Below, piece by piece: positions 36,680-57,610 of a stretch of 64,000 bases of DNA. The notes under the pieces are model-generated. The model had not been told where the DNA came from. It made no database searches and saw only the letters and a list, made by a program, of their open reading frames with translations. The DNA comes from Ferrovibrio sp. MS7 (GTDB lineage: Bacteria > Pseudomonadota > Alphaproteobacteria > Ferrovibrionales > Ferrovibrionaceae). Within the stretch, counting starts at the first letter, position 1, and each line of letters starts with the position of its first letter. The stretch spans positions 1 to 64,000 of the forward strand of contig NZ_JBBKBA010000001.1 in the NCBI RefSeq assembly GCF_038404985.1. Direction: 5' to 3'. Both the position numbers and the translations under genes were made by a program.

Positions 36680-36683
36680 GGTT

Positions 36684-37481
36684 TCACATATACCCAGCGA
36701 CGCGCAACCGCTCGAATGCGTCCTCCGAGTCGTGATCCATGGCACGGCCAGCACGTTCCGGCTCGCGGGTCACTTCAAGTTCGCTGATGATCTGGTCGAT
36801 ATTGCCGGCCTGGCTATCAATCGGGAAAGTAATGCCGATCTCGCCCAGTGAGCGGAAACGCTTGCCTTCCTTGGCAAAATACAGCGGCACCACCGGGATA
36901 CCCTCGCGCTGTATGTAGCGCCAGATATCCAGTTCGGTCCAATGCAGCAGCGGGTGGATGCGCATATGCACACCCGGCGGCAGTTCCGAGGCGAAATGAT
37001 CCCAGAGTTCGGGCGGCTGGTCGCGGAAATCCCAGGCACCATCCTCGGCACGCGGGCTGAATACCCGTTCCTTGGCGCGGGTCGCCTGCTCGTCGCGGCG
37101 GATGCCGGCGATCACGCCCTTGAAACCATACCTGGCGATGGCTTCCTTGAGGCCCAGGGTCTTACGCGCCGCGATACGGGAATTATGCGGCAGGGTCGGA
37201 TCGGTGGCTTCCAACGGCGGGCACATATCCTGGATCAGTTCCAGGCCCCATTCCTTGGCGTAGCGGTCGCGGAAGGCATAGGTCTCGGGGAATTCCAGGC
37301 CAGTATCAAGATGGGCCACCGGAAACGGCACTCGGCCCAGGAAGGCCTTCTTGGCCAGCCAGATCATGACATTGGAATCCTTGCCCAAGGACCACAGCAT
37401 CGCCAGCGGCTTGATGCGGCTATAGGCCTCGCGGAGGATGTAGATGCTCTGGGCTTCCAGCCAGTCGAGATCGTCGGTCAT
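36684..37481 (-). CDS. cysD: Sulfate adenylyltransferase small subunit
   Basis: The 265-residue PP-loop ATP pyrophosphatase carries the SLGKDS motif (31-36), [14 protein letters not shown] and [15 protein letters not shown], all typical of CysD. It adenylates sulfate to APS with the CysN GTPase. I chose the ATG at 37481, whose protein opens [20 protein letters not shown]; the frame is open for 70 further codons upstream, but those overlap cysH. The protein is somewhat shorter than E. coli CysD (about 300 residues). cysNC begins four bases downstream. Confidence 0.94.
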
Positions 37482-37503
37482 AATTTCACAAACTTTCAGC
37501 GTT

Positions 37504-38244
37504 CTATTCTTCACCAAGGCGGCTGGCCGGTAAAGGCATATGGAGGCCGCATTCGACTTTGTCCTGGCCGCGCCAGCGGCCCGCGCGCGCATCCTCGCCG
37601 GGCGTGACCGGCTGGGTACAGGGCGCGCAGCCGATGGAAAGATAGCCCTGGTCTGCCAGCGGATGCGCAGGCAGACCGTGGCGGCTGACATAGTCGGTAA
37701 GTTCCGCTGCCGTCCAGCCGGCCAGCGGATTGAATTTCAAGCGGCCATCCACCGCCTCCACCAGCGGCAGAGCGGCCCGGCTCCGGGCCTGGAAGCGTTT
37801 GCGGCCATTGATCCAGGCCTCGAAGGGCTTCAGGCCGCGCTGCAGCGGCTCCACCTTGCGGATGGCGCAGCAGGCATCGGCATCGCGGAACCACAGAGTG
37901 CCACTTGGATCCTTGGCCCCCAGCAATGCCGGCTCGGGGCGCAACACGCGCAGATCGGTAAGGCCGAACTGCGCCGTCAACTGCTCGCGATAGGCCAGGG
38001 TCTCGTCGAACAGCTTGCCGGTATCGATGAACAATACTGGTGTTGCCGGATTCACCTGCGCCACCAGATGCAGCAGCACGGCGGCATCGGCACCGAAGGA
38101 CGAGACCAGGGCGATGCGCCCGGGGAATAATTCATCAATCGCCACGCGCAGCATGTCGGTTGCCGACAGCCCGGCAAAGCGCCGGTTCAGCACCGCCGCC
38201 GTATCGGCGAGCGCGTCGCCGCCTATGTCGAGCGCGGCACTCAC
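37504..38244 (-). CDS. cysH: Assimilatory APS reductase (CysH family)
   Basis: The 246-residue enzyme reduces activated sulfate to sulfite. It has the P-loop-like SSFGADAAVLLH, and the two cysteine pairs CC at 125-126 and CAPC at 206-209 that bind a [4Fe-4S] cluster in APS reductases and are absent from the enterobacterial PAPS reductases. The catalytic Cys is in ECGLH (residue 232). APS rather than PAPS is therefore the likely substrate. It starts at a GTG that overlaps the stop of the DUF934 gene (GTGA). Confidence 0.92.
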   Translation of the reverse strand: MSAALDIGGDALADTAAVLNRRFAGLSATDMLRVAIDELFPGRIALVSSFGADAAVLLHLVAQVNPATPVLFIDTGKLFDETLAYREQLTAQFGLTDLRVLRPEPALLGAKDPSGTLWFRDADACCAIRKVEPLQRGLKPFEAWINGRKRFQARSRAALPLVEAVDGRLKFNPLAGWTAAELTDYVSRHGLPAHPLADQGYLSIGCAPCTQPVTPGEDARAGRWRGQDKVECGLHMPLPASRLGEE

Positions 38245-38762
38245 AGCCCTGCCTTGCGCGCCAGGCGCTGCTGCAGGCCGAGACGCACATTCTGCGCCGT
38301 GGCACGGTCATCGCCAGTCGGCTGATAGAACACGGTCATTTCCTGCAAGGCCGCCTTGAACACCTTTTCGGCATCGGGGCGGTTGATCTCGAAGGCGTCG
38401 AAGCCGGCACGGTGCATGTAGAGAAGCTGATCGCGCAGCACCTGGCCGGTGGCACGCAATTCACCCTGGTAGCCGAGATGCTCGCGCAGCACACGGGCCT
38501 GGCTATAGGCGCGGCCATCGCTGAATTTCGGGAAATTCAGCGCGATCAGGGCGAAACGGTGCACATCGCCGTTCAGTTCTTCCGGCGCCGCCGTGTTCGG
38601 CAGGCTCAGACCCAGCGGCGCGTTGCGCTGTTCGAGCTGCGCCTTCTGCTCCTGCCAGCGTTTCAGCGACACCACGGCCTTGCCGTCCGCCGGCAATTCC
38701 GCGTCATCCGCCACCAGGATCCAGTCGTCAGTGGTTTCGATCCCGTTCTTAATGAGCGGCAT
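38241..38762 (-). CDS. DUF934 family protein associated with sulfite reduction
   Basis: A 173-residue cytoplasmic protein of the DUF934 type, which almost always lies between cysI and cysH in alphaproteobacteria. It has no signal peptide and no obvious catalytic motif; GRAYSQARVLREHLGY and FDAFEINR are recognisable family blocks. The ATG at 38762 overlaps the 3' end of cysI by 14 nt. A supporting role in sulfite or APS reduction is inferred from context; the biochemical function is not known to me. Confidence 0.85.
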   Translation of the reverse strand: MPLIKNGIETTDDWILVADDAELPADGKAVVSLKRWQEQKAQLEQRNAPLGLSLPNTAAPEELNGDVHRFALIALNFPKFSDGRAYSQARVLREHLGYQGELRATGQVLRDQLLYMHRAGFDAFEINRPDAEKVFKAALQEMTVFYQPTGDDRATAQNVRLGLQQRLARKAGL

Positions 38763-40407
38763 AGACCTTCTCCTTGAACGGGGCGAGGCCGACGCGGCGA
38801 TAGGTATCGAGGAAACGTTCACCTTCCTGACGCAAACCGAGATAGGTCTCGACCAGTGTATCGATGGCATGCAGCGCGTCCTGCTCATTCAGCGCCGGGC
38901 CGATCAGATCGCCGAGTGCCGCATCGTCGCTGGCGGAGCCACCAATAGTGATCTGGAAGAATTCCTCGCCGGCCTTGTCGACGCCGAGGATGCCGATATG
39001 GCCGACATGGTGATGCCCGCAGGCATTGATGCAGCCGGAAATCTTGATCTTCAGTTCACCGATATCCTGCGCCCGCTGCCAGTTCTTGAAACGCAGCGCG
39101 ATGGCCTGGGCAATCGGGATCGAGCGCGTGTTGGCCAGCGCGCAGTAATCCATGCCCGGGCAGGCAATGATGTCGGAAACCAGTCCGATATTCGGCGTCG
39201 CCAGCCCTTGCGCCTTCAGCGCCCGCCACAACACCGGCAGGTCGGCCTGGGCGACATGCGGCAGCACCAGATTCTGTTCATGGGTGACCCGGGCCTCACC
39301 GAAGGAATAGCGCTCAGCCAGATCGGCCACCGCCGCCAACTGGTCCGCGGTAATGTCGCCCGGCGGCTTGCCTTCCTCTTTCAGCGAGATATTGACGATG
39401 GCATAGCCGGCCTGGCGATGTTTCACCACGTTTTGGCGGTGCCAATGGGCAAAGTCGCGGTCCTGGCGCAGGCCTTCCAGCAGGGCAGCTGGCGGCGCAG
39501 CAGGCAGGTCGGCATAGGCCGGCGGCGCGAACTGCGCCGTGATGCCGTCAATCACGTCCTGCGGCAGCTTCAGCGCGCCATCCTTGATCAACGCCCACTC
39601 GGCTTCCACATCCTCGCGGATCTTCTCGATCCCGGTCTCGTGCACCAGGATCTTGATCCGCGCCTTGTAGAGATTGTCGCGACGGCCATAGCGGTTATAA
39701 ACACGCAGGATGGCTTCGAGATAGCTCAGCAGATGCTGCTTCGGCAGGAAGCTGCGAATGGTCTTGCCGATGAACGGCGAACGGCCGAGACCACCGCCGA
39801 CAAAGACCTCGAAGCCGGTTTCGCCGGCATCGTTCTTCAGCATGCGCAGGCCGATATCATGCACACGCACGGCGGCGCGGTCATGCGGCGAACCGGTGAC
39901 GGCAATCTTGAACTTGCGCGGCAGGAAGGCGAATTCCGGGTGGAAGGTCGACCATTGCCGGATGATCTCGCACCACACCCGCGGATCCTCGATCTCGTCG
40001 GCGGCGACGCCGGCATACTGGTCCGTGGTGGTGTTGCGGATACAGTTGCCCGAGGTCTGGATGGCATGCATCTGCACTTCCGCCAATACGGCAAGGGCTT
40101 CCGGCGCATCCTCCAGCTTGATCCAGTTGAACTGGATATTCTGCCGCGTGGTGAAATGGCCCCAGCCACGATCATAGCGGCTGGCGACGCGCGCCAGGCC
40201 GCGGAGTTGATGCGAGGCCAGCGTGCCATAGGGAATGGCGACACGCAGCATGTAGGCATGGAGCTGCAGGTAGAGGCCGTTCTGCAGCCGCAGCGGCTTG
40301 AACTCGTCCTCGCTCAATTCGCCGCTGACACGGCGCTCAACCTGACCACGGAACTGCGCCAGGCGTTCATCGATCAGTTGCTGGTCTAATGGATCATAAC
40401 GGTACAT
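38749..40407 (-). CDS. cysI: Sulfite reductase hemoprotein (nitrite/sulfite reductase family)
   Basis: The 552-residue protein has two ferredoxin-like/siroheme repeats. The cluster and siroheme ligands are visible as ACPGMDYC and SGCINACGHHH, and the siroheme-contact TTRQNIQF lies near residue 85. It reduces sulfite to sulfide using siroheme made by the CysG encoded upstream. No CysJ flavoprotein is in the window, so the electron donor is probably ferredoxin or an unlinked reductase. It lies 10 nt after the DUF2849 gene. A role in nitrite reduction is unlikely given the sulfur context. Confidence 0.93.
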   Translation of the reverse strand: MYRYDPLDQQLIDERLAQFRGQVERRVSGELSEDEFKPLRLQNGLYLQLHAYMLRVAIPYGTLASHQLRGLARVASRYDRGWGHFTTRQNIQFNWIKLEDAPEALAVLAEVQMHAIQTSGNCIRNTTTDQYAGVAADEIEDPRVWCEIIRQWSTFHPEFAFLPRKFKIAVTGSPHDRAAVRVHDIGLRMLKNDAGETGFEVFVGGGLGRSPFIGKTIRSFLPKQHLLSYLEAILRVYNRYGRRDNLYKARIKILVHETGIEKIREDVEAEWALIKDGALKLPQDVIDGITAQFAPPAYADLPAAPPAALLEGLRQDRDFAHWHRQNVVKHRQAGYAIVNISLKEEGKPPGDITADQLAAVADLAERYSFGEARVTHEQNLVLPHVAQADLPVLWRALKAQGLATPNIGLVSDIIACPGMDYCALANTRSIPIAQAIALRFKNWQRAQDIGELKIKISGCINACGHHHVGHIGILGVDKAGEEFFQITIGGSASDDAALGDLIGPALNEQDALHAIDTLVETYLGLRQEGERFLDTYRRVGLAPFKEKVYAAH

Positions 40408-40417
40408 GACGGTTTCC

Positions 40418-40717
40418 TCAGGCTGCTTCCGTGGTCGGTCCCTGAGCGCGGATACGCTCGCGGAACTGCACCGGCAGCGGGGGCGTGCTGCCAGGCTCGA
40501 CCGGCACCAGATAGGGTGCCACTACAATATTGCGCGCCGCCTGGGCATTGGCTTCGGCCAGCAGGCTGGCGGCGGCGGCTTCGTCCGGTGCCACGACGGC
40601 ATCCTTGATGCTACGGCTCCAGGCGGAATCGGCGGTGAGATAGACCACATCACCGCGCACCAGATGATTGGCGGTGACAATCTGCGGGTTGTGCTTGAGC
40701 TTCGGGGCTTTGGCCAT
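40418..40717 (-). CDS. DUF2849 family protein
   Basis: A 99-residue protein of the DUF2849 type, typically encoded between cysG and cysI in alphaproteobacteria. It opens MAKAPKLKHNPQIVTANHL and has the block GDVVYLTADSAW. No signal peptide, membrane segment or metal motif is evident. It sits 17 nt after cysG and 10 nt before cysI. Its role in sulfite reduction is inferred from this conserved neighbourhood only. Confidence 0.85.
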   Translation of the reverse strand: MAKAPKLKHNPQIVTANHLVRGDVVYLTADSAWSRSIKDAVVAPDEAAAASLLAEANAQAARNIVVAPYLVPVEPGSTPPLPVQFRERIRAQGPTTEAA

Positions 40718-40734
40718 GGGGCGGGGCTCTTTTC

Positions 40735-42120
40735 CTAAGCGATCTTGCGCTGCTGGTGCATGGATTGCGTGGCGCGGGCGCGCGCCGCCACGGCACCAAG
40801 CACCAGCAGGGTGGGGCCGGAGCCGTGACGGGCACCGAGCGATACCAGGTCGGCAAGCCGGCCCTGGCTGACAACCTGGTCCGGGCGGCTGCCATTCTCG
40901 ATCAGCGCCAGCGGCAAGTCTGCGGAGACGCCATGGGCCAGCAATGCATCGCGGATCGCCGCCGCCTGGCTCAGGCCCATATAAATCACCAGCGTCTCAT
41001 CGGCCTTCACGCGTTCAGCCCAGCCGAGTGCTGCTTCGCCGCTCTTGTCGTGGCCGGTGACGAGCGTAAGCGCGCGGCTCATGTCGCGATGGGTGAGCGG
41101 GATGCCGGCGGCTGCGGCACAACCGAGCGCCGCCGTGATGCCGGGAATCACCACCACCTCAGCGCCATGCGCCTCAAGGTGATCCACTTCCTCGCCGCCA
41201 CGGCCGAAAATGAAGGGGTCGCCGGCTTTCAGCCGCACCACGCGCTTGCCGGCTTCCGCCGCCTGCAGCAGCAAGGCATTGATGCCGGCTTGGTCAATGC
41301 GGTGGCTGCCTTTGCGCTTGCCTACCGGTACACGTTCGGCATCGCGGCGGGCGCGCTCCAGCACCGCCGGCGCCACCAGATCATCATAGAACACCACATC
41401 GGCGCTGCTCAGCGCCCGCTGCGCGGCGATAGTCAGCAGATCGGGATCGCCAGGGCCAGCGCCAACGATATGCACCACACCAGCGATTTCAGCTTGTGGC
41501 CGGTTCAGTTCACGCAGCATGGTTTCGCGCGCGGCACCAAGGCGGCCTTCCAGTGCCTGGACCGCCGCCGGGCCATCGAACACCCGGCGCCAGAAGGCGC
41601 GGCGGCGTTCGGCATCGGGCAGTACACGGGCGACACTGGCGCGGAAATCTCCGGCCAGCTTCGCCAAGTCACCGAGCCGGCTCGGCAGCATCGCCTCGAT
41701 CTCGGCACGCAGGCGACTGGCCAGCATCGGCGCGCTGCCCTCGGTGGCGATGCCGACGGTGATATCGCCCCGGCGCACGATGGCCGGCACGGTGAAATCG
41801 GAAAGGTCGGCGCGGTCGACAACATTGATCAGCAGGCCGCGCGCCCGGGCTGCCGCCGCCACCTGCTCATCGACACGCGGATCGGCGCTGACGACGATAA
41901 GGAAACCTTCCAGCGCCGCCGGGGTGAAATCCTCAGGCCGATGCCGGATCACGCCCTCGGCCGCCAGGCCGGCCAGTTCGGCATTGAGTTCAGGGGCGAG
42001 CACGGTAAGCACGGCCTCCGCATCGCGCAGCAGGCGCAGCTTGCGGGCAGCATTCTCGCCGCCGCCAATGACCAGGACCGGTCGCTGGCGCAGATTGAGA
42101 AAGGCAGGAAAGGACGACAT
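40735..42120 (-). CDS. cysG: Siroheme synthase (trifunctional)
   Basis: The 461-residue protein matches E. coli CysG in length and order. The N-terminal dehydrogenase/ferrochelatase domain has VLVIGGGENAARK, and the C-terminal uroporphyrinogen-III methyltransferase domain starts near residue 218 with VHIVGAGPGDPDLLT and has RLKAGDPFIFGRGGEE. It makes siroheme for CysI. I chose the ATG at 42120 (GGAGCC upstream) because its N-terminus aligns with known CysG; an in-frame ATG lies 48 nt earlier. It is the first gene of the sulfur operon. Confidence 0.94.
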   Translation of the reverse strand: MSSFPAFLNLRQRPVLVIGGGENAARKLRLLRDAEAVLTVLAPELNAELAGLAAEGVIRHRPEDFTPAALEGFLIVVSADPRVDEQVAAAARARGLLINVVDRADLSDFTVPAIVRRGDITVGIATEGSAPMLASRLRAEIEAMLPSRLGDLAKLAGDFRASVARVLPDAERRRAFWRRVFDGPAAVQALEGRLGAARETMLRELNRPQAEIAGVVHIVGAGPGDPDLLTIAAQRALSSADVVFYDDLVAPAVLERARRDAERVPVGKRKGSHRIDQAGINALLLQAAEAGKRVVRLKAGDPFIFGRGGEEVDHLEAHGAEVVVIPGITAALGCAAAAGIPLTHRDMSRALTLVTGHDKSGEAALGWAERVKADETLVIYMGLSQAAAIRDALLAHGVSADLPLALIENGSRPDQVVSQGRLADLVSLGARHGSGPTLLVLGAVAARARATQSMHQQRKIA

Positions 42121-42216
42121 CGGGGCGGCTCCAGGGGCAGCATCGCTTAGGAACGCCCGGATCGGCATTCCCCGCTAGCAGTCTGTGCCAGGGAATATTT
42201 TACACTGACATTCTAT

Positions 42217-42302: not shown

Positions 42303-44537
42303 CTACTTTGACGTCGCGATGTACACGCCGGTCCAGTTTTCGCCCGGCGGGTTGGCGCGGTATTCCCCGATCCGCTCCAGATAGAGGTCGTACAGGTCTT
42401 CCAGTTCGGGATTGGCCTGGCTTTGAATCCGGATCGCCGCCTCGGCGGCATCCCAATCCTGGCTGCGATAGGCCGCCAGCATGGCGGCATGATCGGCCTG
42501 CAGTTTCTGAAAACCAGTATCGGCTGCCTTGGTGGCATCGCCGAGCAGGGCAAAGATCCGCACCGCCTCGGTCTTGCCCTTCACGGCGATCAGATCCAGT
42601 TCCAGCATCGCCCAGCCCGCCTTGGTCGCTTCCCGGGTCGATTCGCCCACCACGATGCCGACACCATAGGTCTTGGACTGGCCCTCGAGCCGCGAGGCCA
42701 GGTTCACTGCATCGCCGAGCACGGAATAATCGTAGCGCTGTTTCGAACCCATATTGCCGACCACGCATTCGCCGGTATTGAGGCCGACGCCGATATTGAT
42801 CGGCACGAACGGCTTCGAGGCGGCCTTGGCTTCCGCCTCCAGCGTGGCATTAAGCTGCTTAAGGCGCTCGAACATGCGCAGGGCCGAGGCGCAGGCATGG
42901 TCGGCATGGTCCGCATCATCCAGCGGCGCATTCCAGAACGCCATGATGCAATCGCCCATGTATTTGTCGATGGTGCCGCGGCGATCCAGGATCACGTTGG
43001 TCATCGGGGTCAGGAAACGGTTGATCAGCTTGGTCAGGCCCTGTGGATTGCCCTTGAACTGCTCCGAAACAGCGGTGAAACCACGGATATCGCAGAACAG
43101 GAACGTCATGATGCGGGTCTCGCCGCCGAGCTTGACGCGCTCAGGATGCGCCGCGAGCTGCTCCACCAGGGCCGGCGAGACATAGCGCGAGAACACGCCG
43201 CGCACCTGGCGCTTTTCCGTCTCCGTGCGCATGTAGCCGATAAGCGAGCCGGAGAGATAGATCAGGAAACCGGCCAAACTCGGCGACACCGGATCGACCA
43301 GCAGGGCATGGACGCTGTAGCCATACCAGGACAGGCCGAAAGCCAGCAGGATGGCGCCGCCGCCGAACAGCGCCGTGCTGAGTGCCCCGCCGCGCGCCAG
43401 CAGGGCGATCAGGCCGAGGCCGAGCACCAGGGTGAACACCCATTCCAGGCCTTCCGACCAGTCCGGCCGCTGCAGGTAATGGCCGAGCAGCACCTGCTCG
43501 ATGGCCTGCGCATGGGCCTCCACGCCCGGCATCACCGGATTGATCGGCGAGGGGCGGATATCACGCAGACCAGCGGCGGATGTGCCGATCAGCACGATAT
43601 TGCCTTCGACCAGGGCCGGATCGAACTCGCCGGTCAGCAGCTTCCAGGCCGAGAGGTAGCGTTTAGCCTCCGGCGGGGTGAAATGAATCAGAATCTGACC
43701 ATCGGCGGTAGTCGGCACTTCATAATTGCCGATCTTGATGCTGTTGATGCCGGTGGCGGCGCCGAAGGCGGTCTGGCCGCTGGCGCCCGATGACCGCACG
43801 ACATAGCTGCGGGCATTCTGCGCCACCCGCAGCGCCTCGGCGACAATGCTGGGCAGCAACTGGCCATTCAACTGGAACAGCAGCGGCACGGTACGCACCA
43901 CCAGGTCGCGACCAGGATGGAAATTGAAAGAGCCATTGCCCGCTGCCGCCGCCTCGAAGGCCGGCAGGGTAGGCACCGTGCCGTGGAAATCGCCTTGCAG
44001 GAAGGGGCGCGGATTGTCGCCGGCGGTGGCAAAACCCGCACGCAGCCTGGGCTTGCGGTCATTCTTCTCTTCCGTGAGGACAAAGCCGGTAACGGCATTC
44101 TTGGCCTGGCCCAGAATGTCGGCCAGCATGGCATCGTGGTCCGGCAGGTCGGCGAGACGCTGGGCGATATCCTCGGCGCCGGTGATCTTTTCCCACAGCT
44201 TGGCTACCTGGCCCGGCGAGGTACGGTCCGGTTCCGCGAAGACGATATCGAACACGATGGCGGCCGCCCCCGCGTTGGCGATTTGCGCCACCATCTCAGC
44301 AACCACTGGGCGTGGCCACGGCCATTGCAGACCGACTCGCTCCAGGCTCTCGTCATCAATGTCTATCACTCGAACGGGTGTATCCTGGAACGTCCGGGGT
44401 GAGATACGCTGGTAATAGTCGAACACAATTGTGCGGAAATCTGTCAGGAGGCCGGCCGGATCCAGCCCACGCAGGCCCAGTACCACCACGAGAACCAGGG
44501 TGGGCACATAAACACTGGCTTGCTTGAACCACTTCAT
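42303..44537 (-). CDS. CHASE2-domain class III adenylate/guanylate cyclase
   Basis: The 744-residue membrane receptor begins with an N-terminal membrane segment, then a large extracytoplasmic CHASE2 sensor (about 30-330), three hydrophobic segments (about 335-420) and a cytoplasmic class III cyclase domain. Both metal Asp positions are present, in FCDIRGF (about 477-483) and DKYMGDCIMAFW. The DKYMGD Lys and the Asp in YSVLGDAVNLASRLE suggest ATP as substrate. It would turn an envelope signal into cAMP. A GGGGG site precedes the ATG at 44537. It is divergent from the TPR-barrel and FecR genes, a known neighbourhood for this sensor type. Confidence 0.92.
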   Translation of the reverse strand: MKWFKQASVYVPTLVLVVVLGLRGLDPAGLLTDFRTIVFDYYQRISPRTFQDTPVRVIDIDDESLERVGLQWPWPRPVVAEMVAQIANAGAAAIVFDIVFAEPDRTSPGQVAKLWEKITGAEDIAQRLADLPDHDAMLADILGQAKNAVTGFVLTEEKNDRKPRLRAGFATAGDNPRPFLQGDFHGTVPTLPAFEAAAAGNGSFNFHPGRDLVVRTVPLLFQLNGQLLPSIVAEALRVAQNARSYVVRSSGASGQTAFGAATGINSIKIGNYEVPTTADGQILIHFTPPEAKRYLSAWKLLTGEFDPALVEGNIVLIGTSAAGLRDIRPSPINPVMPGVEAHAQAIEQVLLGHYLQRPDWSEGLEWVFTLVLGLGLIALLARGGALSTALFGGGAILLAFGLSWYGYSVHALLVDPVSPSLAGFLIYLSGSLIGYMRTETEKRQVRGVFSRYVSPALVEQLAAHPERVKLGGETRIMTFLFCDIRGFTAVSEQFKGNPQGLTKLINRFLTPMTNVILDRRGTIDKYMGDCIMAFWNAPLDDADHADHACASALRMFERLKQLNATLEAEAKAASKPFVPINIGVGLNTGECVVGNMGSKQRYDYSVLGDAVNLASRLEGQSKTYGVGIVVGESTREATKAGWAMLELDLIAVKGKTEAVRIFALLGDATKAADTGFQKLQADHAAMLAAYRSQDWDAAEAAIRIQSQANPELEDLYDLYLERIGEYRANPPGENWTGVYIATSK

Positions 44538-44712
44538 GCTTACCCCCGCAGACTTTCCGCCCTGTTGTGGATGTTTCCACGCCGCATCGTAGCTTTACCG
44601 TTAATTCGCAGATTATCGCCTTGAATCCGCTTCGCAACGAACAAGAATTTGCGTATTCTTCGCTTGGTTGCAAGCAGCGTACTGCAAGTAGTGCTTTGGG
44701 GAAGCTCCAGAC

Positions 44713-46068
44713 GTGTCGCCACATAAACAAAAGACTTCGCGCCGCCTCACCATGTCCGCGCTGGCCATCATTGGTGGCTTGCTTTGCTCGGGCGCAGCTT
44801 CGGCACAGCAGCAAATCAACTACACGCCGGAATACGATGCAGCTTTCAAGGCGATGCTCAGCGATCCTGGCAATCTCGACAAGACCTTTGCTTTCGCCAG
44901 CGAGGCGATCAAGGCCGGCGATCTGGAAGGCGCGGTAGCGGCGCTGGAGCGGATGCTGTTCATCAACCCGAATCTGCCGCGCATCCAGCTTGAACTCGGC
45001 GCCTTGTATTTCCGCCTTGGCTCGTTTGAGGCTGCGCGCGCCTACTTTCTGACCGTCAAGGATGATCCGAACGCACCGGCGGAAGTGAAAAGCAAGGTCG
45101 ATGCCTTCCTCGCCGAAATCGACAACCGCCAGAAGCGGCATAAATGGTCGGGCTCGCTGTTTGCCGGCATACGCTGGCAATCCAACGCCAACACCGCTTC
45201 CGCCGATGGCGTGGTATCGGTGCAGGGTGTCGCGTCGACGCTGGACTCGCAGTTCACCCAGAAGCGGGACTGGAATGCCTTCGCGGCGCTGAGCGTCAAG
45301 CATACTTACCAGATGGATCCGGCGCAGCCCGATACCTGGGATACCAGCATCACCACCTTCGGCTCGCGCCAGATGCGGCAGGAAACCGTGGATGTCACGC
45401 TCGGTGAAATCACCACCGGGCCGAGCCTGAAGATATTCCCCGGCAACGACTACGATCTCACCTTCCGCCCCTACGGCCTGATCACCTATGTGGCGATCAA
45501 CGATGTGCGGGATTTCTTCGCGCCCGGCGCCGGCGCCTCGCTCAGCGCCACGCTTGATCCGTTGACCTTGGCCGAATTGTCGACGGAATGGCGCGACAAA
45601 CGCTACCGCGACAGCTTCAAGAGCCCGACCAAAAGCGACCGCGATGGCATCGAACGTGCGTTGCGCGCCCGCATTGTCCGCGTAATCAACCAGGATCTCA
45701 GCCTCAATCTCGGCGGCAGCCTGACCAAGCAGGAAACCCAGGCTGACTCGCAGGGCAATTTCGAATATGCCTGGACCTTCGGTGCCGCTTGGAATTTCGA
45801 CTCGCCACTTGATGGCACGATGCCGCGCTGGACCTTGATCGGCAGCGTTACCCGCGCCTTCACGCCCTATGAGACACCCGACGCCACCATCAATGCGAAC
45901 GTGACGCGCTTCGACAAGGATTGGCGTTTCTCGCTGACCCAGGCGGTGCCGCTGAACAAGGACTGGACCGCGATTGCCATGCTGGCGCGCACCATTCGCA
46001 CGTCTTCGCTGCCGAACTACCAGTATACCAACAACGCGTTGACGCTCGGCGTCAGCTACCGTTTCTAG
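44713..46068 (+). CDS. TPR plus outer-membrane beta-barrel protein, SLAM-like
   Basis: The 451-residue protein has a signal peptide ending near AASA (about residue 31), a helical TPR-like region (about 45-135) and a C-terminal barrel of roughly 310 residues ending in the outer-membrane signature SYRF. The barrel opens SGSLFAGIRWQSNANTA, close to the G-x-x-x-x-SN-N-A opening of SLAM/DUF560 translocators, which export proteins with small C-terminal barrels. It starts at a GTG preceded by GGGGAAG. The next gene, 11 nt downstream, encodes a large secreted protein that is a plausible client. SLAM assignment is by architecture and needs confirmation. Confidence 0.72.
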   Translation: MSPHKQKTSRRLTMSALAIIGGLLCSGAASAQQQINYTPEYDAAFKAMLSDPGNLDKTFAFASEAIKAGDLEGAVAALERMLFINPNLPRIQLELGALYFRLGSFEAARAYFLTVKDDPNAPAEVKSKVDAFLAEIDNRQKRHKWSGSLFAGIRWQSNANTASADGVVSVQGVASTLDSQFTQKRDWNAFAALSVKHTYQMDPAQPDTWDTSITTFGSRQMRQETVDVTLGEITTGPSLKIFPGNDYDLTFRPYGLITYVAINDVRDFFAPGAGASLSATLDPLTLAELSTEWRDKRYRDSFKSPTKSDRDGIERALRARIVRVINQDLSLNLGGSLTKQETQADSQGNFEYAWTFGAAWNFDSPLDGTMPRWTLIGSVTRAFTPYETPDATINANVTRFDKDWRFSLTQAVPLNKDWTAIAMLARTIRTSSLPNYQYTNNALTLGVSYRF

Positions 46069-46079
46069 GAGCACAAGCC

Positions 46080-49000
46080 ATGACCGCTCGCCGCTTTACC
46101 CGCGCCGCCGCCCTGGCCGTTCTTCCCGCCCTGGCGCTCTTCGCCCTGCACTCTGCCCTGGCAGCCTCCGATCCCATCGGCGTGGCAGCCGCGGTGAACC
46201 CCGATGCAGCCGGCACGCCGCCGCAGATGCAGAAGCGCCTGATCGAAGTCGGCACCAACATGCTGAAGGACGAGAAGGTGGAAACCGGCCCCAATGGCCA
46301 GGTGCAGTTGCTGTTCAACGACGGCAGCGCCATTTCCATTGGCCCCAACAGCGAAATGGTGCTGGATACCTTTGTCTACGATCCGGCCAAGGGCACCGGG
46401 CAGATGGCCGTGTCGGTCGCTAAAGGAACCTTCCGTTTCATCGGCGGCAAGATTTCCAAGGAAAACCCGGTCCAGATCAAGGCCGGCAGTGCCACCATGG
46501 GCATCCGTGGCGGCGTAGCCGTCATTCAAGCCACGCAGAATCAGCCAACCGGGCCCGGCGCTGCGAACAATCCGGCAGCGACGCCGGGGACAACCTCCAC
46601 CGCGACCTTCCTGTATGGCAACCAGATGACCGTTACGCAGGCGGGCGTGACGCAAACCGCCACGGTGCCAGGCACGGCCATTGTTACACCGCCAGCCGGC
46701 CCACCCAGTCCGCCGCAGATTGTGACGGCGCAGCAGATCCGCCAGACCAACTCCCAGACCGCCAGGCAGGGTGGCTCCAGTGGCGGCAGCAGCGGCGGTG
46801 GCGGCGGTGACAGCGGCGGTGGCGGCGCGCCGAGCGGTGGCGGCAATATCGAAGCCGGCCTGTCCAGTTCGGGCGTCTCGCAGCAGAATTCATCCGCCCC
46901 GCCGTCGTCGATATCGACGGTGTCGCCCGCGCCTCAGGTGCAGCAGCAGCAATCCTCCAACCCGGCCCCGCAGCAATCCTCCAGCACGGACCAGGCGAGC
47001 AAGTCGGTTAACAGCAGCCAGACCCAGACTCAGACCCAGCAGGTGGTGAACAATACCAACCAGCCGGTGATCACCCAACTGCCCGGACGGATCGGCCGTT
47101 TCCTCTATGATAACGGCACCACCGCCGAGATTTTCTCCGGCACCAACGTCGCCAATGGCAACGCGACGGTGAACTCGACTTACAATCAGACCATCAATAG
47201 CGGCAATTTCCGACTCTACGCCGCGAACAAGAATGCGTCGGAATCGCTGCAGGCCACCATTGCCTCCACTCCAATCGGCACTGGCACGACACTGACATTG
47301 CCGATCAATGTCGAAGATTCGGCCTTCACGCTCTCGGTTTCCAGTTCGCCCTACGGCGCTCTCTCTGGCAGTGGTTACGCCAGTTCGGATAATGATTTCT
47401 TCTATTACTCGCTGCAGAGTCAGGCTGCTTCGACCACCAAGCTGGTGCTATTCGGCGGCACACCGACCACCACGGCTGATTTCCGGCATAGTGGCTTCAG
47501 CACCTATACCCTGCTGAACGGCGTGAACACCGTGCCCCTGATGGGCTCGGAGATGAACTCCACCTCCGTAAGCTCCTCTGCCCAGGTATCGAAACTATAC
47601 TCGAACCATTCGAGCAACATGCTGCCCAGCAGCATGACCGGCGCTCTTGCCACCAATCTGCAGGCGACGATCTCGATCGCCGGCCAGGGCACCAGCCAGT
47701 CGTCGATGCTTTCGGGCATGACCGGTGTTTTTGCCAACGACACCACGAATAACGATGTGGTGCTGACCGGCGGTGTCAACGGCTCCTTCCGCGCCGGGGC
47801 AAGCAACACACTGCGGAATTACACCTCCACTGTCAGCAGCGCCGCCGCCGGCAGCAATGGCTCGTCAGTCTTTGGTGATACTGGTGAATACCTGGTACTG
47901 ACGCCTGACAGCCTCTACCTCGATACCGACACCGAAGCCGTCACCCGCACGACCAAGATCGGCATTTCCTCGCAAGCGGCCACCACGCCGGTGCTGGAGG
48001 ATTATTTCTTCATGAATGGTGCCACGCGCACCAGCAATCCCAGCGGCGTTACCAGCCCCACCCGCACCAGTCGCACACTGCAAGGCTATGCCTCGGGCAT
48101 GCTGGAACGCGCCAGCCAGACCGATCAGATCCTCTACACCAAGGATCACGACCCGACCAATGTGTCGCTGACCACCAACGCCACCAGTAACCAGGCACGC
48201 GCCACCTTCACCCTGCGGGGCAGTACGCAGGACTTCGTGGTGGAATTCGGCGACGTGAATGCTGGCCTCAACGACAGCGTGTCGCGCTCCTCCTTCATCA
48301 ACGACAAGCTCTATGCCGCCCGCGAGTCCTATGGCCGCAATAGCAGCGTCGATGGCACGCCGGTGCAGAGCGCCCAGAATTTCCTCGCCTCATCCGCGCT
48401 GGCCAGTGTCAACAGCAGTTTCGTCAGCCAGGGCAACGCCTTCTGTGCGACATGTAACGACCTGTCCTGGGGCTGGTGGCTCAGCAACATGCAGGAAGCG
48501 AGTTCTGGGCCGAATGACCGGGTGCATATGGGCACGTTCGTCACCGGCCTGCTGCCGGCGACAAGCGCCATCCAGCAGACCGGCACCGCCACTTTCCGGG
48601 GCCAGGCACTCGGCAGTGTCACGAATGGTTCCAACCGCTACCTCACGCTTGGCAACTATCTCCAGACCTGGAACTTCGCCAGCAAGACTGGCCAGATCTA
48701 CATTACAAACTTCGACAGCTATAATTTTGTCGGCACCGGAAGCGCCCCGGACAACGACCGCGATTTCAATGCCAACCTGACGCAGCTTTATGCCAGCGGC
48801 ATCAGCGGCTCGATGCACGGTTCCTTCTTCAGCGACGGCCTGGGCAACAATGCCAAATATGTCGGCGGCCAATTCACCCTGAGCGGCACCGGCTACAACG
48901 CCATCGGCACCATCGCCGCTTCCAGCAATACTGCCTCGACCGGCTTTCTCGGCCGCTTCCTGCGCTCTGACCCAACCAACAGCATCAATCCATTCACCGG

Positions 49001-50819
49001 CTTCAATAACTCGACGCTGCGCGCCACGGCCGTGAGTGCCTACAACAACACCAATATCAGCTTCACCCGGCTGGATCAGACCTGGATGAGGGCCAGCACC
49101 ACGGAAGGCGATCTGTATTTCTACGCCGTGCCGTCAAACAGCAGCTACACTGCCAGTGCCGCCACGGTGATTTCGCCCTATGGCCAGCAGGCCGGCACGG
49201 TGTATTACGCCGCCGACCAGACCTTCTTCTTTGCCGGCCTGCGCGACTCCCTGGACAACACGGCGCGTACCGTGGTGTTTGGCGGCAATCCGACTCCGCG
49301 CGTGGATTTCCCCACCCTTGGGCTTGCCAGCTATAATATGGGCCAGGGCAACAACCCGGTGCCCTTCGCCAGCACCGCGATCACGTATGCTGACACCAAC
49401 CTCTCGAACGCCCGCACGGTCTCGCCGCTTTACGCGGCCTTCTCCAGCAACCTGACCTATGCCGGCACCAGTTCCGCGCCGGAGCGTGCGGTGCATACCC
49501 AGGCCTCCATCGGCATCTATGGCCAGGGCGCGTCGCAGCAATCCTTCCTGGTGGCGGAAACCGGCAATTTCATCGAGGAAGCAGCGAATAACGACGTGGC
49601 GCTGACCGGTGGCATGCGTGGCTCGATCCGGATGAATGCTACCGGTGCCACCACCCGGCTTGTCAGCAACGTGACCAGCGCCGATGCCGATACGCGCAAC
49701 GCCATTTATGGCTCGAATGCGGATCACATGGTGCTGACGCCAGATGCCACGGTGACCAACACGGTGGACGGCACCATCGACCGCGAGACCGCGCTGGCCT
49801 TCAATCAGCCGCATACCAACCTGACTGGCTCGAGCTACAATTTCTTCGAAGTCGCGAACCGGACCAGCACCAACTCCACCACCCTGGCCGCACCCGGGCG
49901 CACCAGCCAGACGCTCAACGGCTATGCCGGCGGCTTGATGGAAATCACCCCGCCGAGCAGCAGTGTGGTGAACAGCACTGACCGCGTGCTGGTGAACCAG
50001 AGCGGCACGGCGGCTGACGTGACAATCCAGACCAGCGCGGCAAACAACCGCGTCTCCGCCAACTTCTCGCTTGGTGACGCGCTGAACGGCACCAGCACCA
50101 ACAGCTACCTGATCAAGATGGGCTCGATCACCGGTACGTCCGCCGGCTCTTCCGCTTTCATCAATGATCAGGTCTATGCTGCCCGCGACATCGCCGGCGC
50201 CACCGACAACACCTTCAATGGCGGCGCCAGCGTGAATGGCGGCTCCTCGGTGAGCGTGGACCAACGCGGCATCATGGTAACCCACACGCTGGCGGAGGTT
50301 TCCTCCAGTGCCATCCCGAGCGGCGTTACCCTGTGTAGCTGCGATTATCTGCAATGGGGCTGGTGGATCACCGATATCCGCCACGGCACCGGCGATACCA
50401 ATGGCGAACGCGACCGCGTGCATCTCGCCACCTGGGTCGCCGGTACACTGCCGAATGTGGCCGAAGTGCCGACCACCGGCACCGCCAGCTACAACGGCAG
50501 CGTGATCGGCAGCGTGAACAACAACGGCGCACGTTACATTGCCATGGGCAATTATACCCAAAGCTGGAACTTCGCCACCAAGGCGGGTACGGCGACAATC
50601 AACAGCTTTGACAACCTTGCCAATATCAGCGGTGCGCTCTCTTCCGGTAACGGCCGCGATTTCAATGGCGCGCTTACCGGCAGCGCCGGCATTACCGGCC
50701 AGCTTGCAGGCTCGTTCTTCAAGGGCGGCACCGATCCGGTGAAGGCGGCGGCGGGCAACTTCACGCTCACCGGTACCAATTATCAGGCCGCCGGCACCTT
50801 CGCCGCGCAGAAGCCGTAA
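46080..50819 (+). CDS. Large secreted FecR-domain protein with duplicated C-terminal units
   Basis: The 1579-residue protein has a Sec signal peptide (cleavage near residue 29, no lipobox Cys) and a FecR domain (about 38-150, with VQLLFNDGSAISIGPNSEM and MGIRGGVAVI). A low-complexity Gly/Ser/Gln linker follows (about 225-330), then two copies of a unit of about 620 residues. Each unit has a Cys pair before a W-G-W-W motif and ends with GSFF and a GG-x-F-x-L-x-G-Y-x-A-x-G beta pattern like the small barrels of TbpB-type proteins. The ATG at 46080 is close behind the barrel gene, so the two are probably one operon. Export by that barrel and sensing by the cyclase are inferences. Confidence 0.78.
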   Translation: MTARRFTRAAALAVLPALALFALHSALAASDPIGVAAAVNPDAAGTPPQMQKRLIEVGTNMLKDEKVETGPNGQVQLLFNDGSAISIGPNSEMVLDTFVYDPAKGTGQMAVSVAKGTFRFIGGKISKENPVQIKAGSATMGIRGGVAVIQATQNQPTGPGAANNPAATPGTTSTATFLYGNQMTVTQAGVTQTATVPGTAIVTPPAGPPSPPQIVTAQQIRQTNSQTARQGGSSGGSSGGGGGDSGGGGAPSGGGNIEAGLSSSGVSQQNSSAPPSSISTVSPAPQVQQQQSSNPAPQQSSSTDQASKSVNSSQTQTQTQQVVNNTNQPVITQLPGRIGRFLYDNGTTAEIFSGTNVANGNATVNSTYNQTINSGNFRLYAANKNASESLQATIASTPIGTGTTLTLPINVEDSAFTLSVSSSPYGALSGSGYASSDNDFFYYSLQSQAASTTKLVLFGGTPTTTADFRHSGFSTYTLLNGVNTVPLMGSEMNSTSVSSSAQVSKLYSNHSSNMLPSSMTGALATNLQATISIAGQGTSQSSMLSGMTGVFANDTTNNDVVLTGGVNGSFRAGASNTLRNYTSTVSSAAAGSNGSSVFGDTGEYLVLTPDSLYLDTDTEAVTRTTKIGISSQAATTPVLEDYFFMNGATRTSNPSGVTSPTRTSRTLQGYASGMLERASQTDQILYTKDHDPTNVSLTTNATSNQARATFTLRGSTQDFVVEFGDVNAGLNDSVSRSSFINDKLYAARESYGRNSSVDGTPVQSAQNFLASSALASVNSSFVSQGNAFCATCNDLSWGWWLSNMQEASSGPNDRVHMGTFVTGLLPATSAIQQTGTATFRGQALGSVTNGSNRYLTLGNYLQTWNFASKTGQIYITNFDSYNFVGTGSAPDNDRDFNANLTQLYASGISGSMHGSFFSDGLGNNAKYVGGQFTLSGTGYNAIGTIAASSNTASTGFLGRFLRSDPTNSINPFTGFNNSTLRATAVSAYNNTNISFTRLDQTWMRASTTEGDLYFYAVPSNSSYTASAATVISPYGQQAGTVYYAADQTFFFAGLRDSLDNTARTVVFGGNPTPRVDFPTLGLASYNMGQGNNPVPFASTAITYADTNLSNARTVSPLYAAFSSNLTYAGTSSAPERAVHTQASIGIYGQGASQQSFLVAETGNFIEEAANNDVALTGGMRGSIRMNATGATTRLVSNVTSADADTRNAIYGSNADHMVLTPDATVTNTVDGTIDRETALAFNQPHTNLTGSSYNFFEVANRTSTNSTTLAAPGRTSQTLNGYAGGLMEITPPSSSVVNSTDRVLVNQSGTAADVTIQTSAANNRVSANFSLGDALNGTSTNSYLIKMGSITGTSAGSSAFINDQVYAARDIAGATDNTFNGGASVNGGSSVSVDQRGIMVTHTLAEVSSSAIPSGVTLCSCDYLQWGWWITDIRHGTGDTNGERDRVHLATWVAGTLPNVAEVPTTGTASYNGSVIGSVNNNGARYIAMGNYTQSWNFATKAGTATINSFDNLANISGALSSGNGRDFNGALTGSAGITGQLAGSFFKGGTDPVKAAAGNFTLTGTNYQAAGTFAAQKP
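47080..50816 (+). repeat. Two diverged copies of a roughly 1.86-kb coding unit
   Basis: Copy one runs from about 47080 to 48930 and copy two from about 48940 to 50816. Matching landmarks occur in the same order in both: GRFL, VLFGG or VVFGG, a SIAGQGTSQ or GIYGQGASQ block, NNDV-LTGG, LTPD, RTS-TL-GYA, FIND-YAAR, the Cys pair with WGWW, DRVH, and the terminal GSFF block. Protein similarity is moderate, so the duplication is old. Confidence 0.85.
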
Positions 50820-50828
50820 GCACATTGC

Positions 50829-50858
50829 GCCAGCCGTCCCATCATGGGGACGGCTGGC
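50829..50858. terminator. Bidirectional hairpin terminator
   Basis: A perfect 12-bp stem (GCCAGCCGTCCC and its complement) with a 6-nt loop lies 9 nt after the FecR gene stop and 26 nt before the convergent DJ-1 gene stop. No long T-run follows on either strand, but the stem is strong and well placed. Confidence 0.75.
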
Positions 50859-50884
50859 GGAAGCGCCGGATGTAGTTGTTGCGC

Positions 50885-56257: not shown

Positions 56258-57610
56258 TCAGTTCGGCAGAACCAGGTCGCGCGCACCTTCGGTGCGGGCT
56301 TCGTTCAGCACCGTGTCGGAAAGCTTGGCGCCGGTGAAGCGGCCATCGGTGAGATCGGCGCTGGTGAGATTGGCCTGGGTGAGATCGGCATCGCGTAGAT
56401 CGGCACCGACCAGGCTGACGCCGGAAAGATTGGCCCCCACCAGCTTCACCTGCTTCAGCTTGGCCGCACTCAAGTTGGTGCGGGCAACGCGGCCAGCGCG
56501 GGCCTCGTCGCGGATCGCCGATAGATTGGAATTCGACATGTCGGCGCCATCGAGCACCGCGCGGCTTAAGTTTGCGCCACGCAGATTGGCCTTGCGCAGA
56601 TCAGCCTTGCGCAGATCAGCGAAATTCAGCCGCGCCAGGGCCAGGTTGGCGCTGGTAAGCAGGGTCTCGGCGAAGCAGGCACGCTCCAGCAGGGCGCCCA
56701 TCAGATTCACGCCGGCCAGGTTCATGCCGCGGAAATCGAAATCGGAAAGATCGGCGCGCTCGCCTTCACGACCCTCGCTCATCACCCAGGCGGCGTGGCG
56801 TTCGAGCAATACCGTCAATTCCTCGCGGCTGTGGCGCGACACGGCGGCAAACACCGCCTCGGCGAATTCCGGCAGGCTGCGCATCGCCTGATCGAGGATG
56901 GCCCCGCGCATGTCAGCACCGGTGAAATTGGCGCCATCCACCGAAGCGCCGGCGAGGTTGGCGCCGGCCAGGTTGGCGCCGCTGAAATCCGACCCGGCGA
57001 GATTGGCTTCGTTCAACCGCGCCGAGACAAGCTGCGCCTTGCGCAGATCGGCGCCGGCCAGATCGGCCTTGCCGAGATTGGCGTCGGCGAAATCGGCATG
57101 CAGCGCGAAAGCCTTGCCGAGGCTGGCGCCGGCCAGATCGGCGCGCTGCGCCGAAGCACCGGAAAGGTCGAGCGGCCGGCGCTGCTGCGTCGAGGCGTCG
57201 GTGAGGCGGCCCTCGGAATCGTAGACCGGCGCCACCGCATCACCGCCATCGATCTCGGCGAAATTGGCATCGTTCAGGCCGGCGGCGCGCAGGCAGGCGC
57301 CGCGTAGATCGGCCCAGCGCAGGTCGGCGCCATCAAGTGTTGCATTGCGGAAATCGGAACCGGCGCATTTCGACAGCGACAGCCGGGTGCCATCGAGGCG
57401 GGCGCGGTGCAACCGCGCGCCGGTGAGATCGGCCTGGGCCAGATTGGCGCCGGAAAGGTCGGCGTCGGACAGATCGGTGTAGGAGAGTTTCGCCGGCTTG
57501 GCGTCGCCGCGTCCCGCCAGATGTGCCTCATGCTCCCGCACCACCTCGCGGAGGCGTTCCTGGCTCATCTTAGCCAGTTGTCTGGGGGCATCTTTCAGAA
57601 GATTCGGCAT
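56258..57610 (-). CDS. Pentapeptide-repeat protein with central helical insert
   Basis: The 450-residue protein has two long blocks of A(D/N)LxX pentapeptide repeats (about 40-240 and 295-440), which fold into right-handed quadrilateral beta-helices. Between them, at about 245-290, is a non-repeat segment with charged helix-type sequence (FAEAVFAAVSRHSREELTVL). The N-terminal 40 residues also look helical. No signal peptide or membrane segment is seen. The family includes DNA-gyrase-protecting proteins and many unknowns; I assign no function. The minus-strand start at 57610 is the natural ATG. Confidence 0.9.
   Translation of the reverse strand: MPNLLKDAPRQLAKMSQERLREVVREHEAHLAGRGDAKPAKLSYTDLSDADLSGANLAQADLTGARLHRARLDGTRLSLSKCAGSDFRNATLDGADLRWADLRGACLRAAGLNDANFAEIDGGDAVAPVYDSEGRLTDASTQQRRPLDLSGASAQRADLAGASLGKAFALHADFADANLGKADLAGADLRKAQLVSARLNEANLAGSDFSGANLAGANLAGASVDGANFTGADMRGAILDQAMRSLPEFAEAVFAAVSRHSREELTVLLERHAAWVMSEGREGERADLSDFDFRGMNLAGVNLMGALLERACFAETLLTSANLALARLNFADLRKADLRKANLRGANLSRAVLDGADMSNSNLSAIRDEARAGRVARTNLSAAKLKQVKLVGANLSGVSLVGADLRDADLTQANLTSADLTDGRFTGAKLSDTVLNEARTEGARDLVLPN

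Follow-up and report, generated by a model that had tools for sequence, protein, structure and literature searches.

Three neighbouring genes in a 64,000-nucleotide stretch of the Ferrovibrio sp. MS7 genome (contig NZ_JBBKBA010000001.1, positions 1 to 64,000, hereafter the window) appear to form a cell-surface sensing device. They are packed into 8.5 kb (42303-50819), and the list of open reading frames (ORFs) places them just where the original prediction, an earlier reading of this DNA from its letters alone, had put them. Gene A (42303..44537, minus strand) encodes a CHASE2-domain class III adenylate cyclase of 744 amino acids; gene B (44713..46068, plus strand, GTG start) encodes a SLAM-like protein of 451 amino acids, predicted to combine tetratricopeptide repeats (TPR) with a 14-strand outer-membrane barrel; and gene C (46080..50819, plus strand) encodes a FecR protein of 1579 amino acids that is predicted to be exported. 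The starts of the divergent genes A and B are 175 bp apart, and gene C begins 11 bp downstream of gene B on the same strand. We consider it somewhat probable that together they make up a surface receptor coupled to cyclic AMP (cAMP) whose pore is of the SLAM-like kind (type XI secretion), in which B would export the product of C, the FecR domain of C would be retained, and the CHASE2 domain of A would read that FecR domain.

Relation of gene B to SLAM

Profile comparison and a predicted structure identify gene B as a remote homologue of the SLAM proteins of the type XI secretion system (T11SS), as had been supposed earlier from its combination of TPR and barrel. When a 12-row alignment of gene B sequences, the window's included, was compared by hhalign with five proteins scoring above the PF04575 cut-off, the match reached 99.9% (E 6e-33); a profile of the barrel alone also gave 99.9% (E 2e-34), with a reversed control at 0.7%. 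Searches with gene B likewise reach proteins above the PF04575 cut-off (G073:C3 and G031:C9). In the AlphaFold model, which has a mean predicted local distance difference test score (pLDDT) of 95.4, six TPR helices (residues 39-139; 44827..45129, plus strand) form a part expected to be periplasmic, followed by a barrel of 14 strands, each at least 13 residues long (about residues 143-450; 45139..46062, plus strand). No barrel fold unrelated to SLAM emerged, and a TPR N-terminal domain with a 14-strand barrel is the architecture given for Slam1 in the excerpts consulted of PMC5449769.

Several results weigh against this assignment, most of them obtained with the window protein by itself. Its TPR matches go down to 3.9e-7 (TPR_19), yet TPR_Slam reaches only 0.048, below the cut-off of that model, and the protein alone has no PF04575 (DUF560) match. 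A Foldseek search of the model against the PDB returned no SLAM among the 50 matches listed, and porins and TPR-barrels such as CymA, OmpG, BcsC and PelB scored alike, so that a fold search of the PDB cannot single out SLAM. In favour of the assignment, PF04575 matches 13 and TPR_Slam 32 of 76 members of the gene B family at E ≤ 0.01. We file gene B, on these profile results, as a SLAM homologue lying outside the family as PF04575 defines it.

A polysaccharide exporter of the BcsC, PgaA or PelB kind was considered as well. Exporter barrels of that type have 16 strands. We rejected this candidate on the 14 strands of the model, the profile match to SLAM and the lack of polysaccharide genes recognised adjacent to gene B in the ORF list.

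Gene C and its cargo-type domains

The gene C product begins with a signal-peptide-like stretch, read from the sequence, that has no lipobox, followed by a FecR domain (E 1.3e-10; Pfam FecR at residues 66-149 within a retention-like region spanning residues 30-225; 46167..46754, plus strand). Next comes a linker of low complexity (residues 226-334; 46755..47081, plus strand) in which Gly, Ser, Pro and Gln abound; Pro, Gly, Ser and Gln together (PGSQ) make up 67% of the 100 residues past the FecR domain and 29% further on. The remainder consists of two tandem units, unit 1 at residues 335-950 (47082..48929, plus strand) and unit 2 at residues 951-1579 (48930..50816, plus strand). The repetition that had been noticed in this protein is real: residues of about 336-947 and 955-1576, some 620 amino acids each, are 35% identical (BLASTP E 5e-96).

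Each unit closes with a small-barrel domain of about 180 amino acids that is related, by profile and by model, to the barrel of SLAM cargo, which by definition is eight-stranded and carries a handle. The one in unit 1 (48387..48929, plus strand) is recognised by the family barrel profile and the one in unit 2 (50277..50816, plus strand) by that profile and by NF041636 slam_lipo, which matches gene C at E 3.2e-8 in two stretches, the best at residues 1447-1578. Gene C holds only four cysteines, one CxxC (residues 789-792; 48444-48455) and one CxC (residues 1419-1421; 50334-50342), and these directly precede the WG motif that opens the final domain of each unit, a combination conserved in 26 of 27 aligned barrel domains. 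Among 39 aligned units the end domains match slam_lipo in 26, FHBP_C in 14 and TbpB_B_D in 12, and the unit-end sequence profile finds NHBA (6cuj, E 1.8e-4) and fHbp chains in the PDB. A profile seeded with both gene C unit ends matched 65 ORFs, counting the window's own, in related loci. Among the loci L081-L160 described below, 53 of the ORFs with this barrel domain are complete, and in 52 of them the domain stops at most 12 residues from the C terminus.

Structure prediction agrees with the profiles. Unit 2 was modelled with a pLDDT of 89.2 and a predicted template modelling score of 0.92, and looks TbpB-like; the first 26 of the 50 Foldseek matches listed are TbpB, after which come LbpB, NHBA, fHbp, HpuA and haemophilins. 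The NHBA match has a TM-score by target length of 0.77. An excerpt of PMC5449769 lists TbpB, LbpB, fHbp and HpuA as depending on Slam, and one of PMC12282271 describes soluble haemophilins as T11SS cargo and HphA as an established soluble cargo. The TbpB-like barrel pattern that had been proposed for both unit ends is thus borne out by the slam_lipo matches and the order of the Foldseek matches, no unit end lacking its barrel. On the other side of the balance, the gene C match to slam_lipo (34 bits, against an NCBI cut-off of 80) does not reach the curated score, and neither does that to FHBP_C (15 bits, cut-off 28.1), so that the case for cargo rests on family profiles and fold. TM-scores for TbpB over the whole unit are low, about 0.23, which means that only the last lobe of the unit is firmly placed. 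A profile comparison of the first part of the unit with its last lobe found no similarity, and we make no claim from sequence that each unit holds two homologous lobes.

In a tree, the first and second units from four members of the window's genus fall into separate, fully supported clades, indicating that the duplication predates the split of these four. They are the only source, in the loci examined, of ORFs with two cargo-barrel domains. The system is patchy within the genus, with strong gene B matches in four of nine genomes, the window's included.

Linkage of the barrel and FecR genes

The neighbours of gene B, among the matches listed, were compared in 80 loci (L081-L160), the best 80 of 244 relatives ranked by the 12-row gene B profile, itself built from the matches listed. 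The loci are not independent, since L081, L084, L090, L144 and L148 lie on contigs already sampled and two genomes are represented twice. A FecR gene adjoins gene B in 65 of the 80, of which 60 were counted by script and five (L081, L084, L091, L137 and L153) were read by eye. In 60 loci it starts at most 1 kb downstream of gene B and is read from the same strand, with a median gap of 18 bp between the ORFs. Where the downstream FecR gene is complete (54 loci), a cargo barrel is found in cis in 44, counting L120 with a partial match whose remainder is in another frame, and on the following gene in 3 (L101, L135 and L154, each with a short FecR gene).

The same association holds at the level of whole genomes. 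Among 78 genomes, the window's own included, the barrel profile matches at E ≤ 1e-20 in 11, all of them among the 15 with a strong gene B (E < 1e-100), and in none of the other 63 (Fisher 2e-10, with kinship ignored). Three weaker barrel matches all occur in genomes with a protein above the PF04575 cut-off. Of 20 stretches around FecR genes that are not beside gene B, picked by eye and mostly for long open frames, two (L166 and L167) contain the barrel, and both genomes carry gene B elsewhere. The constant core of the module is the barrel gene with the FecR gene.

Other counts weigh against a fixed pairing of pore and cargo. Seven of the 54 loci show a cargo barrel neither in the FecR gene itself nor in the gene that follows it. 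Around the gene B matches in the 78 genomes there are 31 loci, the window's included, and 21 of them have both gene B and FecR; among these 21 additional loci, on the whole more distant ones, the barrel is present in 10 and was not found in 11. Fifteen of the 80 loci have no FecR neighbour, FecR being scored as absent where the profile made from the gene C family gave no match; 13 of these have enough sequence to judge, and L092 and L133 run into a contig edge.

The FecR proteins that lack the barrel beside gene B (L042-L045, L048-L050, L052, L053, L057 and L058) have tails of which several are proline-rich or short and others are beta-rich by eye. Gene B stands without FecR in the fetched DNA of L082, L083, L086, L087, L088, L094, L099, L107, L108, L123, L127, L151 and L152; in L151 a CHASE2 cyclase nevertheless lies 0.7 kb downstream of gene B. 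More than one FecR gene occurs in the neighbourhood of gene B in L058, L104, L111 and L158; in L104 and L111 two of them carry a cargo barrel.

A FecR domain related to retention domains

The FecR domain links gene C by profile to a domain of RTX adhesins, a connection that appears to be new. A profile of 35 FecR-domain sequences, four of them from other architectures and three of these RTX-type, matched a single PDB chain when all matches with E ≤ 10 were admitted, namely 5ix9, 'Antifreeze protein' (E 1.5e-11), which we take to be the N-terminal domain of an ice-binding adhesin from Marinomonas. The NCBI model retention_LapA matches 21 of the 35 domains, with a best E of 1.1e-8. By these profile matches the FecR domain is related in sequence to the retention domain of RTX adhesins. 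Retention domains, according to the excerpts consulted of PMC12077191, fold internally and are too large for the export channel, thereby anchoring the adhesin, and those of the Marinomonas protein and LapA have a common fold. No co-mention of 'FecR' with 'retention module' was found in open-licence literature.

Some observations temper this relation. The 5ix9 match spans positions 5-82 of the 184 in the profile, the window FecR domain alone matches 5ix9 at 0.014 only, and it scores 22.7 bits against the retention_LapA cut-off of 50. Two models of Leptospira surface proteins, Lsa33 (33 of 35) and LipL45 (28 of 35), match more of the domains than retention_LapA does, making the retention relation one of several for the FecR domain. 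A LapG-type protease was not found in the window's own genome.

The resemblance to an RTX-adhesin domain suggests that the gene C cargo may be tethered and not shed. An N-terminal FecR domain, a flexible linker and then surface modules is, we infer, how a tether running through a pore would be expected to look. The competing view, that of a plain T11SS, has gene B secrete the whole FecR protein, which would be soluble and fully released, with the cyclase merely regulating it or being a loose neighbour; we regard this as rather improbable. It fits the lack of a lipobox in the window protein and in 48 of the 55 complete FecR ORFs listed (a lipobox-like string is present in the other 7), and it can point to soluble T11SS cargo such as HphA, to the haemophilins among the fold matches of unit 2 and to the majority of loci in which no CHASE2 cyclase was found (66 of 80). 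The build of these proteins speaks against it. Wherever a complete ORF has both domains (58 cases), FecR is N-terminal to the barrel; the residues that follow FecR have a higher PGSQ content (mean 0.45 against 0.34), and the least complex 60 residues sit near the FecR end in 36 of the 58. The likeness to a retention domain and the finding that FecR domains linked to CHASE2 also head RTX-type proteins likewise argue against full release. A soluble or shed cargo, as first proposed for gene C, is therefore not in our view the likeliest outcome.

The CHASE2 cyclase and its wider partnership with FecR

Gene A was earlier described as a membrane cyclase with an external sensor, and its domains agree with that description. 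Residues 15-374 match CHASE2 (PF05226, E 8e-54; 43416..44495, minus strand), a domain expected to be periplasmic, and residues 477-658 match the catalytic domain Guanylate_cyc (PF00211, E 1.6e-19; 42564..43109, minus strand). Hydrophobic stretches lie near residues 4-34, 78-102 and 361-407. The motifs FCDIRGFT, DKYMGDCIMAFW and YDYSVLGDAVNLASRLE are all found in the cyclase domain, where they presumably retain the metal-binding and adenine-type residues of class III cyclases; with CHASE2 and class III domains and these catalytic motifs, gene A has the make-up of a CHASE2 adenylate cyclase. It is the sole CHASE2 match of its genome at E ≤ 0.001. The same genome has eight places with a cyclic-nucleotide-binding domain and eleven with a class III cyclase, which could serve or confuse a cAMP signal.

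The cyclase is an optional partner of the B-FecR pair. It occurs near gene B in 14 of the 80 loci or, counting only the 49 loci flanked by 4 kb or more on both sides, in 12, and it adjoins gene B in 10 of the 15 genomes with a strong gene B. One locus with all three genes is L141, from Rhodopseudomonas rhenobacensis. Relative to B-FecR the cyclase gene can be divergent or convergent, lie upstream, or come last in the operon. Of three plasmids with a gene B match, two, from Shinella and Paracoccus, carry tight B-FecR-cyclase operons. The loci in which CHASE2 was not found (66 of 80, and 37 of the 49 with longer flanks) weigh against a fixed three-gene device, as does the third plasmid, from Azospirillum, which has a FecR gene of 298 amino acids and neither a cargo barrel nor CHASE2 in the fetched stretch. 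The original prediction had taken the three genes to be one module: their co-occurrence is indeed far from random, with the cyclase as the member that is often missing. On the Paracoccus aminophilus plasmid pAMI5, the linker of the FecR protein (L184, 6237-8201; residues about 257-370) resembles collagen-like adhesin repeats; close by, in divergent orientation, lies a patatin-like gene of the cyclic-nucleotide-binding kind.

Seen from the side of the cyclase, the pairing with FecR is wider than this module and is partly in print already. Of 100 CHASE2 matches listed in the 78 genomes, 32 have a FecR match within 7 kb, where about 1.4 would be expected; the count draws on 150 FecR matches listed (more exist) and 100 of 103 CHASE2 matches, and some matches are pieces of one gene. 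FecR proteins of 1129-1294 amino acids lie beside CHASE2 cyclases in L161 (8306-11692), L162 (6800-10681) and L181 (4944-8648), and in L161 and L162 the FecR domain, TPR and a TonB-receptor-like barrel are on one chain. On pSymB of S. meliloti, a FecR protein of 1235 amino acids is encoded directly upstream of a CHASE2 cyclase, and the L162 protein is 31% identical to it over 98% of its length. Near CHASE2 in L163, L164, L174 and L176, FecR heads long proteins of RTX, Calx-beta, cadherin or VWA type, possibly a counterpart exported by a type I system. Since FecR heads other surface proteins near CHASE2, its pairing with CHASE2 looks like a wider theme of which the SLAM-like pair is one build. 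A further FecR domain (G017:C2:181835-182131) lies within an open frame of 6679 amino acids.

Such numbers make it highly improbable that genes A, B and C are adjacent by chance or descent alone, with no joint function. That the sampled genomes are related, and that gene B has no FecR neighbour in the 13 judgeable loci, would fit such an origin. The excess of FecR near CHASE2 does not, nor do the keeping of the same partners in several gene orders, the presence of all three genes together on two plasmids, the locus counts and the co-occurrence across genomes, and on these grounds we discarded it.

The fused proteins bear on a second alternative, in which gene B would be an outer-membrane receptor barrel that contacts a periplasmic FecR protein, a split counterpart of the FecR-TPR-barrel chains, and signals to CHASE2; the TbpB-like units would then be periplasmic or leave by another route. 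We think this unlikely, if less so than full release of the cargo. The fusions beside CHASE2 cyclases in L161 and L162 and the pSymB protein speak for it, and loci missing a cargo barrel feed it too, given that gene B and FecR persist without one in 7 of 54 and 11 of 21 cases. The barrel of L161 and L162, however, is of the TonB-receptor family, whereas gene B relates to SLAM, and 47 of the 54 loci keep, within the FecR gene or the one after it, a cargo barrel that a pure receptor would not need.

Proposed mechanism

In the cAMP-coupled receptor that we favour, gene B would move the TbpB-like C-terminal modules of the gene C product across the outer membrane. The FecR domain would fold in the periplasm and be held there in the manner of an RTX-adhesin retention domain, and the flexible linker of about 110 residues would run through or along the barrel to the two TbpB-like units outside. 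Binding of a ligand outside, or a changed export status, would be passed to the FecR domain, which would meet the CHASE2 domain of the inner-membrane gene A product and thereby alter its cAMP output. Of the single signalling and secretion module first proposed, the SLAM-like gene B, the cargo barrels and the gene linkage stand; the cyclase has become optional, shedding of the cargo unlikely, and the link between FecR and CHASE2 wider than the module itself.

The classical iron-dicitrate FecI/FecR/FecA scheme of anti-sigma signalling was also tried. We rejected it, the FecR domain being the sole part of that architecture here and standing behind a signal-peptide-like start. A reading of the ORF list alone, over 36000-57000, turned up neither a sigma factor nor a TonB receptor.

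More broadly, the recognition target of CHASE2 was called unknown in 2016, in the excerpts consulted of PMC5192318. FecR, found beside CHASE2 far above chance and joined on one chain to surface modules whose export routes can be recognised, offers a concrete candidate for its direct partner. We put forward tentatively, as a possibility short of a probable one, that FecR serves generally as a plug in the periplasm and as an adaptor for signalling on proteins exported through SLAM-like pores, RTX-type export or TonB-receptor-like barrels, keeping one end of them periplasmic and reporting surface occupancy or tension to CHASE2. If so, CHASE2 would be the reader of a trans-envelope tether, and the locus in the window would be the version with a SLAM-like pore.

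Surroundings of the three genes

Directly 3' of gene C, a hairpin with a perfect 12-bp stem, an 8-base loop and no T run (50828..50859, plus strand) was read directly from the sequence and is possibly the terminator of a B-C unit; a consensus terminator scan missed it. Promoter and terminator scanning of the window gave a result no better than the shuffled level, and an Rfam scan at gathering scores gave zero matches in the window. To the left of the module (34781-42168) lie genes that read as sulfate assimilation (cysN/D/H/I/G-like), and to its right (56258-57610) a pentapeptide-repeat protein, both recognised from the ORF list only.

Comparison with known systems

The closest likeness is to SLAM/T11SS (DUF560, PF04575), with which the locus shares a TPR domain and 14-strand barrel, an adjacent cargo gene and a cargo end of TbpB, fHbp or NHBA type. 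Surface proteins of Sphingomonas and Psychrobacter, described in the excerpts consulted of PMC12282271, are T11SS cargo in which an N terminus rich in repeats goes with more than one TbpB-type barrel. Unlike these systems, the window has no PF04575 match, its cargo is headed by FecR, lacks a lipobox and has two complete units, and the gene B family is sometimes coupled to a CHASE2 cyclase; the words 'FecR', 'CHASE' and 'cyclase' are absent from the main text of two T11SS surveys. TbpB and LbpB are the Foldseek matches of the modelled unit 2, and gene C differs from them in having no lipid anchor, two tandem units and no neighbour recognised from the ORF list as a TonB-dependent partner. With the RTX adhesins LapA and MpIBP, gene C shares an N-terminal domain related to 5ix9 and retention_LapA followed by binding modules that are exported, or in gene C predicted to be; its export would use a SLAM-like barrel and not a type I system, and the LapG-type protease was not found.

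A cluster of Lysobacter (orf4990-4994, PMC11233812) brings together genes for FecR, for a TbpB homologue and for SLAM, and is the only place in open-licence literature where we found TbpB, FecR and Slam together. Its FecR is encoded apart from the cargo as a regulator of the sigma type, the cluster also holds genes for a sigma factor and a TonB-dependent transporter, and the excerpts of that paper mention no CHASE2 cyclase. In two further systems the gene of a CHASE2 sensor lies next to one for an exported protein with a FecR domain: the BiofilmReg operon of Burkholderia (PMC5192318), with a kinase and a LysM-FecR protein, and a cAMP cluster of Campylobacterota (PMC9239204), with a FecR outer-membrane protein, a phosphodiesterase and a TPR protein. 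Neither source, in its consulted excerpts, mentions cargo of the SLAM type.

The nearest parallel on the signalling side is NsrA with CyaK and CyaD in S. meliloti, which likewise combines an outer-membrane barrel protein with a CHASE2 adenylate cyclase and in which, according to the excerpts consulted, a protein signal raises cAMP. From size and place we take the pSymB FecR-CHASE2 pair, unannotated as such in its record, to be NsrA and CyaK; one protein there replaces genes B and C and has no SLAM or cargo-barrel profile match. In an excerpt of PMC5498481 the S. meliloti FecR protein SMc02177, whose location beside cyaD1 we deduce from locus numbers, is reported as unnecessary for signal perception, a point against a reporting role for FecR. 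NsrA itself, located in the outer membrane, is described in parts of PMC7529298 and PMC13001267 as acting through CyaK, and so provides a precedent for an outer-membrane protein that can signal via a CHASE2 cyclase.

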